A DNA stretch of 64,000 nucleotides from an uncultured Clostridia bacterium (GTDB lineage: Bacteria > Bacillota > Clostridia > Christensenellales > Aristaeellaceae): NCBI GenBank assembly GCA_947631405.1, contig CANRLC010000006.1, positions 1-64,000 on the forward strand. The letters run 5' to 3'. Below the pieces are notes generated by a model. The model saw only the letters and a list, made by a program, of their open reading frames with translations, was not told the DNA's origin and did no database searches. Position 1 is the first letter of the stretch, and the number at the start of each line of letters is the position of its first letter. The position numbers and the translations under genes are program-made. Shown here one piece after another: positions 61,917 to 64,000 of the stretch.

Positions 61917-62085
61917 CTTTTCTCAGATAAAACCTTCCTATGGTGCGAAGCACAGGGTGGGGTCTGGGGACAATGTCCCCAGACAGGGTTTGGGGCGGTA
62001 GCCCCAACGTTCCCCGGCGCGTAGCGCCTACAAATGAGTAGCCCGGAAGCGAAGCGATCCCGGGCGGGTTCACCGTGAATATGAT
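61917..62085 (+). repeat. Structured GC-rich intergenic repeat, copy I
   Basis: CTTTTCTCAGATAAAACCTTCCTATGGTGCGAAGCACAGGGTGGGGTCTGGGGACAATGTCCCCAGACAGGG...CCCGGGCGGGTTCA; begins 3 nt after the PMT gene stop. Confidence 0.9.
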
Positions 62086-62142
62086 TTGAGGATAGCATAA
62101 AGCTCAGGGCAAGAAACGCCCCGAGCGAGCGCAATCCCCAAA

Positions 62143-62174
62143 GACCTGCCGCACATGCGCGGCGGGTCTTTTTT
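62143..62174 (+). terminator. Intrinsic terminator upstream of the surface-protein promoter
   Basis: AGACCTGCCGC...GCGGCGGGTCTTTTTTT. Confidence 0.85.
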
Positions 62175-62216
62175 TGCCGAAAAGGCGAAAAGTTCAAAAA
62201 ACCTTTCTGGAAAGCC

Positions 62217-62247
62217 TTGACAAAAAACTACCGGGGGGGGGTATGAT
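62217..62247 (+). promoter_or_regulatory. Putative phase-variable promoter with G9 tract in its spacer
   Basis: TTGACA (62217-62222), AAAAACTACC + G9 (62233-62241), TATGAT (62242-62247); spacer 19 nt. Confidence 0.75.
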
Positions 62248-62306
62248 GGTAGACGGATACGCATCGAAATCCAATGGCAAATTCACCATAAAGGAGACGG
62301 GGAAGC

Positions 62307-64000
62307 ATGAAGGAACAGAAAAGCAAGAGGATGCTCGCGTGGGTGCTGAGCGCGATGCTGCTGCTGTCCAACCTCCCGTTCGCGCTTGCGCAGGGGCTGG
62401 GCGAGGGACATCCGGACGAGGCGACGCCTAGCGAGGGCCTCGAGACCATCGCAGACGACGAGATGACGCCCTGCCCGGAGGGCGAGCACGCCTTTGTGGA
62501 CGGCGTCTGCACGGCGTGCGGAACGCCCTGCGCGCATGAGTTCAAGGCGGGCGTCTGCACCGTGTGCGGAGCGGCTTGCGCGCACGTCTTTGTGGACGGC
62601 GTCTGCGCCGTTTGCGGCGCGGAGGAGCCGGGCGAGGACGACGAGAACGCGTTGAACGACGAGAATACGTCGGACGATGAGACCGTGCCGAGCGGCGAGA
62701 CAGTGTCGGACGAGGCGACGCCGGGCGAAGGTACCGAGGAGATCGTCAGCGACGAGACGGTGTCGAACGACGAAACGGCATCGAATGACGAGACCGCGTC
62801 GAACGACGAGACCGTGTCGGACGAGGCGACGCCGGGCGAGGGCGCCGAGGAGGTCGTCAGCGACGAGACGGTGCCGAATGACGAGACCGTGTCGAACGAC
62901 GAGACTGTGTCGGACGACGAGGGCGCGACGGGCAGCGAAAGCGCATCGGACGACGAGACCGTACCGGACAACAAGCCCGAACCCTGCGCGGACGGCGCGC
63001 ATGTGTTTGAGAACGGCGTTTGCACGGTGTGCGGCACGGTTTGCACGCATGATTTCGTGGACGGCGTCTGCGCAAAGTGCGGCAAGAAGGAACCCTGCGC
63101 GGACGGCGCGCACGACTTTGTGGACGGCGTTTGCACGGTGTGCGGCGCTCCGGCGGATTCCTCCAAGGATCAGAGCGAGGAGGTATTTGACTTTGGCGTG
63201 TCGCTGATGGCGTTGGATGGGGAATGTACGCACGAGAACGCAAATTTCGGGCCGTATCAATCGACGACTGTTCCGCCTACGCCCAACGGCGACGGTACGC
63301 ATACCGTCACATATGATTGGATGCTGTATAGTTGTCCGACGTGCGGCGCAAAGAGCGTCGTAGTGGAAGCCGGATATATGACGATGAGAGAACCATGCTA
63401 TTATAATGATATGGATGATGTATGCGATGCATGCGGCTACGAATACAAATGCGAACATAAGTGGACAAAACAGGAAGAATGGCTTAAGAATGTAACTTAC
63501 GTTGGTTACAACGGCAACGGCACACATACCGAGATTGGCGATCTTTTCAGGCGGACAGTTTGCGTCACTTGCGGCAAGACGGTGAGTGAAGGGATTGTTC
63601 AAACGGGAGTGAGTGAGACTGAACCATGTTATAGCTATCAAGGCAAACAGAACTGTAGGGTGTGCAATGCGCCGCTTCTCGAAGGCGTAGCCTGTGCCCA
63701 TACGAACCGCGAATATTACTGGCTTCTAGTCGGCGGCTGTACTGGCGAGGACAATGGGGATGGCACGCACACAGAAACGTATGTGTTGGGCAAGTATTGG
63801 TATTGCGAAAACTGCGGCAGGGAAGAGCGCGACGAATCCGGCGAGACGACAGTCCAAATCTGTGTCGAGCCGCACCGTATGAAGTGGGATGGAACATGCT
63901 ATGATTGCGATTATATTGCCGGCAGCGATTATGTGGACAAAAGAGCCACATGTGAGCACAAGAACAAACGTGAAGTCCTGACAACAGATTTCACCATTTC
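62307..64000 (+). CDS. Secreted repeat-rich surface protein with Cys/His motifs (3' truncated by window end)
   Basis: ATG 62307 after AAGGAGACGGGG; MKEQKSKRMLAWVLSAMLLLSNLPFALAQG signal peptide; frame open to the window edge; six HxFxxGVCxxCG motifs and an acidic ETVSNDE-type repeat region; not in the supplied ORF track. Confidence 0.88.
   Translation, partial: MKEQKSKRMLAWVLSAMLLLSNLPFALAQGLGEGHPDEATPSEGLETIADDEMTPCPEGEHAFVDGVCTACGTPCAHEFKAGVCTVCGAACAHVFVDGVCAVCGAEEPGEDDENALNDENTSDDETVPSGETVSDEATPGEGTEEIVSDETVSNDETASNDETASNDETVSDEATPGEGAEEVVSDETVPNDETVSNDETVSDDEGATGSESASDDETVPDNKPEPCADGAHVFENGVCTVCGTVCTHDFVDGVCAKCGKKEPCADGAHDFVDGVCTVCGAPADSSKDQSEEVFDFGVSLMALDGECTHENANFGPYQSTTVPPTPNGDGTHTVTYDWMLYSCPTCGAKSVVVEAGYMTMREPCYYNDMDDVCDACGYEYKCEHKWTKQEEWLKNVTYVGYNGNGTHTEIGDLFRRTVCVTCGKTVSEGIVQTGVSETEPCYSYQGKQNCRVCNAPLLEGVACAHTNREYYWLLVGGCTGEDNGDGTHTETYVLGKYWYCENCGREERDESGETTVQICVEPHRMKWDGTCYDCDYIAGSDYVDKRATCEHKNKREVLTTDFTI

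Follow-up and report, generated by a model that had tools for sequence, protein, structure and literature searches.

A candidate promoter-spacer contingency locus with a G9 tract upstream of a secreted-protein gene in an uncultured Clostridia bacterium

The window analyzed here, a 64,000-nt stretch at the start of contig CANRLC010000006.1 from an uncultured Clostridia bacterium (Aristaeellaceae; assembly GCA_947631405.1), has a GC content of 67% and ends inside a gene encoding a secreted protein, the promoter region of which is described in Table 1. Direct reading of the sequence agreed with the preliminary description on the two promoter boxes, the nine Gs, and the 19-nt spacer, as well as on the ribosome-binding site and start codon of a signal-peptide protein downstream, with 59 nt between the -10 box and the ATG. 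The strong terminator reported just upstream was likewise found by folding energy and z-score, although a consensus terminator scanner made no call at this position; its 3′ end lies 41 nt from the -35 box, and it isolates the G9 promoter from the upstream gene. The arrangement TTGACA-N10-G9-TATGAT places between recognizable -35 and -10 boxes a homopolymer above the minimum of about 8 nt set for assignment to the porA/opc type. This G9 is the single run of seven or more Gs or Cs in the window. Against an expectation of 0.02, the window holds three promoters of the strict form TTGACA-N14-21-TATRAT, namely the G9 promoter and two with 17-nt spacers, and a whole-genome scan for TTGACA-N4-16-G6+-TANNAT returned only two sites, the window locus and one paralogue (C33).

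Table 1. Features of the G9 promoter region and the downstream gene (window coordinates).
Feature	Position	Strand	Details
Rho-independent terminator	62140..62175	+	13-bp stem, 6-nt loop, T7; -26.7 kcal/mol, z -5.5
-35 box TTGACA	62217..62222	+	read from sequence; identical at paralogues C33 and C32
Spacer, non-G part AAAAACTACC	62223..62232	+	10 nt; C33 counterpart AAAAACTAC, 1 nt shorter
G9 homopolymer, proposed slippage element	62233..62241	+	read from sequence
-10 box TATGAT	62242..62247	+	spacer 19 nt
Shine-Dalgarno AAAGGAG	about 62291..62297	+	read from sequence; conserved in C33 paralogue
Secreted-protein gene (ATG at 62307)	62307..64000 in window, to contig position 65870	+	1187 aa complete

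The interval from the upstream gene to the terminator holds, at 61950–62090, a dispersed repeat of 70–90 bp of which the genome has more than 30 copies; it contains a perfect 11-bp inverted repeat. A search of the 5′ region for RNA elements gave only weak matches, far under the gathering scores and for the most part located on the terminator, and no plasmid copies of the G9-promoter region were found. When the promoter and signal-peptide region was searched for at the DNA level in 100 relatives, just short matches to the signal-peptide part were recovered.

The open reading frame begins with MKEQKSKRMLAWVLSAMLLLSNLPFALAQ, a signal peptide, which suggests a surface location for the 1187-aa protein. 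It is followed by Cys-rich CxxC/H units, tandem arrays of acidic (S/N)DDETV (DDETVSN) repeats, further Cys/His units, a PT/PE-rich linker, and finally the C-terminal domain, approximately 150 aa long. In Pfam and NCBIfam searches of the protein, neither a family nor an anchor or adhesin domain reached the curated cut-off. Of the 201 genomes searched, 23 gave a match to the C-terminal domain, which was confidently predicted to adopt an alpha/beta structure (pLDDT 86) and for which no fold match was obtained in the PDB. This domain (L020:1501-1995 and homologues, alignment A3) occurs in secreted proteins across the family and is without a Pfam entry.

According to this shared domain, the genome encodes three family members: the window gene (C6) and the paralogues C33 and C32. 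A 9-nt G or C run sits between consensus -35 and -10 boxes in all three, with spacers of 19, 18, and 16 nt, respectively. The C33 gene (1051 aa) is preceded by TTGACA-AAAAACTAC-G9-TATGAT, and the C32 gene (640 aa, 39% identity in the domain) by TTGACA-GTA-C9-GGTT-TATAAT (G000:C32:1670-1697, L050). Nine G/C runs of at least 9 nt are present in the whole genome; combined with roughly 75–100 strict promoters, a figure extrapolated from the window, they give a rough chance expectation of about 0.004 runs inside strict promoters. That three such runs should fall by chance into strict promoters within a single family is very unlikely.

The two close paralogues, C6 and C33 (L009 16307-19870 and L010 4625-7780), are 91% identical over 209 bp at the 5′ end, a stretch that spans promoter, leader, and signal peptide, and 90% identical over 715 bp at the 3′ end, while the middles have diverged. 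Ends of this kind suggest gene conversion. They would speak for inter-paralogue recombination or promoter inversion as the main source of variation, with the G run secondary, but the paralogues lie on separate contigs, each with a complete promoter of its own, and flanking inverted repeats are absent around the promoter; we consider this explanation highly improbable, the least probable of those weighed. An invertible promoter of the CwpV type was rejected, the sole inverted repeat (61962-61984) being located upstream of the promoter and not flanking it.

Other G runs in the genome lie outside this family. A G9 at G000:C36:17438-17446 (L259), about 37 nt 5′ of the start of a chain-length/exopolysaccharide-like gene (MATEEQQAMRV...), is possibly another contingency site. 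G9 and G10 runs precede the start codons of two similar genes by 8 and 38 nt (G000:C1:118456, L236, MNEDLKRYIAN...; G000:C24:8943, L250, MQEMMERYLGN...), and a G11 is situated within a 703-aa open reading frame (G000:C2:43135-43145, L238), where slippage would shift the frame.

In related genomes, the homologue in G014, of the same genus, carries TTGACA-AAATTCACC-G11-TATAAT with a spacer of 20 nt directly 5′ of the gene, and that in G060, of a different genus, has a G9 5′ of TATAAT with a weaker -35 box. G9 and G10 runs in 19-nt spacers also precede other signal-peptide acidic-repeat proteins (G060:C25 and G138:C75), and in G056 a C9 run in a 19-nt spacer lies 5′ of a secreted-protein gene. 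The homologues in G028, G017, G010, and G115 have ordinary promoters without a tract, so the tract has been gained and lost. Since the run consists of Gs in some promoters and of Cs in others, and can lie near the -35 box, in mid-spacer, or adjoining the -10 box, the common factor is spacer length and not a binding sequence. Some G6–G8 matches before housekeeping genes are probably unrelated to the class.

The search was extended to GTDB, where TTGACA-N8-11-G9-TATRAT was found in more than 117 stretches; the matches listed were mostly metagenome-assembled genomes (MAGs) of gut Bacilli and Clostridia, and included Saccharibacteria, Streptobacillus, spirochaetes, and Helicobacter. A looser pattern, allowing spacers from 8 nt, yielded 1 to 21 sites in each of 40 matching genomes, and the reversed-pattern control gave zero in every genome scanned. 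Three Streptobacillus genomes, a cultured genus (G789, G820, G821), carry about 11 to 21 G-run-spacer promoters each. Spacer lengths were hand-transcribed from the 40-genome scan into 119 rows, omitting genomes with one site and some of the identical rows from G815, and were distributed as 17:1, 18:27, 19:64, 20:23, and 21:4; the genomes had been picked for a spacer match of 17–20 nt, which biases the sample, and most of the other sites in them were unpicked. In Streptobacillus, the G-tract spacers ranged from 15 to 21 nt with a mode of 19. Ordinary promoters in the same loci peaked at 17 nt (10/35; 16:6, 18:3). With a simple hydropathy rule and simple gene calls, an N-terminal signal or transmembrane-like segment was predicted for 65 of 87 downstream genes (75%) versus 112 of 448 others (25%; Fisher p=2.5e-18). 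A phage origin of the class was rejected, as only three matches were found in IMG/VR.

These data bear on whether the window locus is simply an ordinary promoter with an incidental G run, or a mis-assembled homopolymer. Composition alone predicts 0.43 G/C runs of 9 nt per shuffled 64 kb, the genome is in 68 contigs, and several homologues are devoid of the tract. Against this, the run falls exactly in the spacer in all three paralogues and in relatives, the reversed controls are empty, and the downstream genes are far from random, which makes a neutral or artefactual origin very improbable.

Concerning variation in tract length, 14 of 20 families of copies sharing their non-G flank within one genome included unequal numbers of Gs. 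In Streptobacillus (phylum Fusobacteriota), orthologous promoters differed in tract length in most pairs, between species: L283/L300 and L302/L291 showed G10 versus G11 with flanks 96–98% identical, and L303/L294 (upstream flank) and L308/L316 showed G11 versus G10 with up- or downstream flanks 91–95% identical, while L283/L275 and L286/L297 had equal tracts. Homopolymer lengths in draft assemblies can be off by one, and the single-G differences between these orthologues may be assembly errors; the window assembly is probably a MAG, in which homopolymer lengths can be wrong. Nine Gs lie near the lower limit for a high rate of slippage. Other observations also count against a slippage switch: the closest paralogues, C6 and C33, have G9 alike, and the 1 nt by which their spacers differ is the only gap in the 209-bp alignment and lies at the C/G border of the tract; in addition, several same-genus or same-family homologues have no tract.

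A further explanation takes the G-run spacer of about 19 nt for a stable variant that acts through the altered twist of the G/C run or as a regulator site and tunes secreted-protein promoters without switching. The class spacers are tight at 18–20 nt with a mode of 19, a concentration that could equally reflect a fixed functional length, and the non-G part and the G count compensate for each other (Spearman -0.51), so total length is constrained. Such a constraint, however, is equally expected for switching around a functional length; the run may be of either base and at any of three spacer positions, and tract lengths differ among near-identical orthologous and paralogous promoters. We therefore regard a fixed variant as unlikely, while giving it more weight than the alternatives above.

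Several characterized systems resemble this locus. In Neisseria meningitidis, a poly-G tract between the -35 and -10 boxes of porA determines surface expression, which is high with 11G, about 2-fold lower with 10G, and about 13-fold lower with 9G (PMC3639595). The likeness lies in a G run within the promoter spacer of an outer-surface protein, whereas porA encodes a Gram-negative porin whose switching was experimentally shown, and the window locus is known from its architecture. The preliminary description implied that GC-rich Gram-positive bacteria offered no precedent, yet PPA1880 of P. acnes (Cutibacterium) has the same design, albeit in an actinobacterium and not a clostridium: tracts of G11, G13, and G15 give spacers of 18, 20, and 23 nt, and the protein was secreted only in the strain with 18 nt (PMC3224659). 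Both loci combine a GC-rich Gram-positive host, a secreted repeat protein, and a G-run spacer; PPA1880 differs in its longer tract and in being a single gene with no shared domain recognized, whereas the window locus belongs to a three-gene family and to a class found across gut Firmicutes. Also in P. acnes, the homopolymer HPT_37 upstream of PPA1943 lies between the -10 and -35 boxes and alters spacer length, with a difference in expression (PMC4746626); it shares this mode of spacer change with the window locus but is a short C5/C7 run with a leaderless transcript. In Mycoplasma gallisepticum, of a Firmicutes-derived lineage, repeat length controls the multigene vlhA surface lipoproteins, a parallel to the control proposed here, although the repeat is a GAA trinucleotide 5′ of the promoter and not a G run in the spacer (PMC6258824).

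Taken together, the architecture of the paralogues, of the G014 homologue, and of the wide class, with the signal-peptide enrichment, fits slippage control, and we propose, at a probability of about 0.74, a slipped-strand, promoter-spacer contingency locus in which the G9 tract is the part that mutates. Replication slippage would add or remove single Gs, altering the distance between the -35 and -10 boxes from the 19 nt of the assembly and with it the fit of the housekeeping RNA polymerase, so that the level of the secreted protein would differ from cell to cell as a rheostat or an ON/OFF switch. The porA series and PPA1880 show or suggest that a change of 1–2 nt is enough to alter output. With C6, C33, and C32 each under its own homopolymer-spacer promoter, a cell could present varying combinations of the three proteins. 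What is observed is the promoter architecture, its recurrence in paralogues and relatives, the signal-peptide enrichment, and the tract-length differences within the class; slippage of the window tract, control of transcription by its length, and the choice of an ON length are inferred. The slippage switch outlined in the preliminary description retains its core, a spacer homopolymer before a secreted protein, and loses, in addition to the implied lack of precedent, the 17-nt optimum as a supported value for this promoter: ordinary promoters of the same loci peak at 17 nt, G-tract promoters at 19 nt. Because the class centers on 19 nt, its commonest setting, 19 nt cannot be assumed to be off-optimum. 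Two readings of this length remain, namely that G-run DNA has its functional length close to 19 nt, or that most copies are in a weak state and occasional slips of -1 or -2 raise expression.

No report of G-run promoter phase variation in Firmicutes was found in the open-access literature searched. The window locus appears to be a predicted addition to an already known type, while the breadth of the class appears to be the new part and, provisionally and with respect to that open-access literature, undescribed. We lean, at little better than even odds, towards G-run spacer switches constituting a large undescribed “phasome” in gut Bacilli and Clostridia as well as some further phyla, with the window locus as one member; it would act mainly on secreted and surface genes, number as many as about 20 sites in a small genome, and favor a spacer of about 19 nt over one of 17. 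That G-run promoters center on 19 nt and ordinary ones in the same loci on 17 raises a physical question about these spacers. The wider scan suggests that many gut Bacilli and Clostridia share this design. Should the tract slip, the bacterium would vary a family of Cys-rich, acidic-repeat secreted proteins in a way described chiefly for pathogens of mucosal surfaces.
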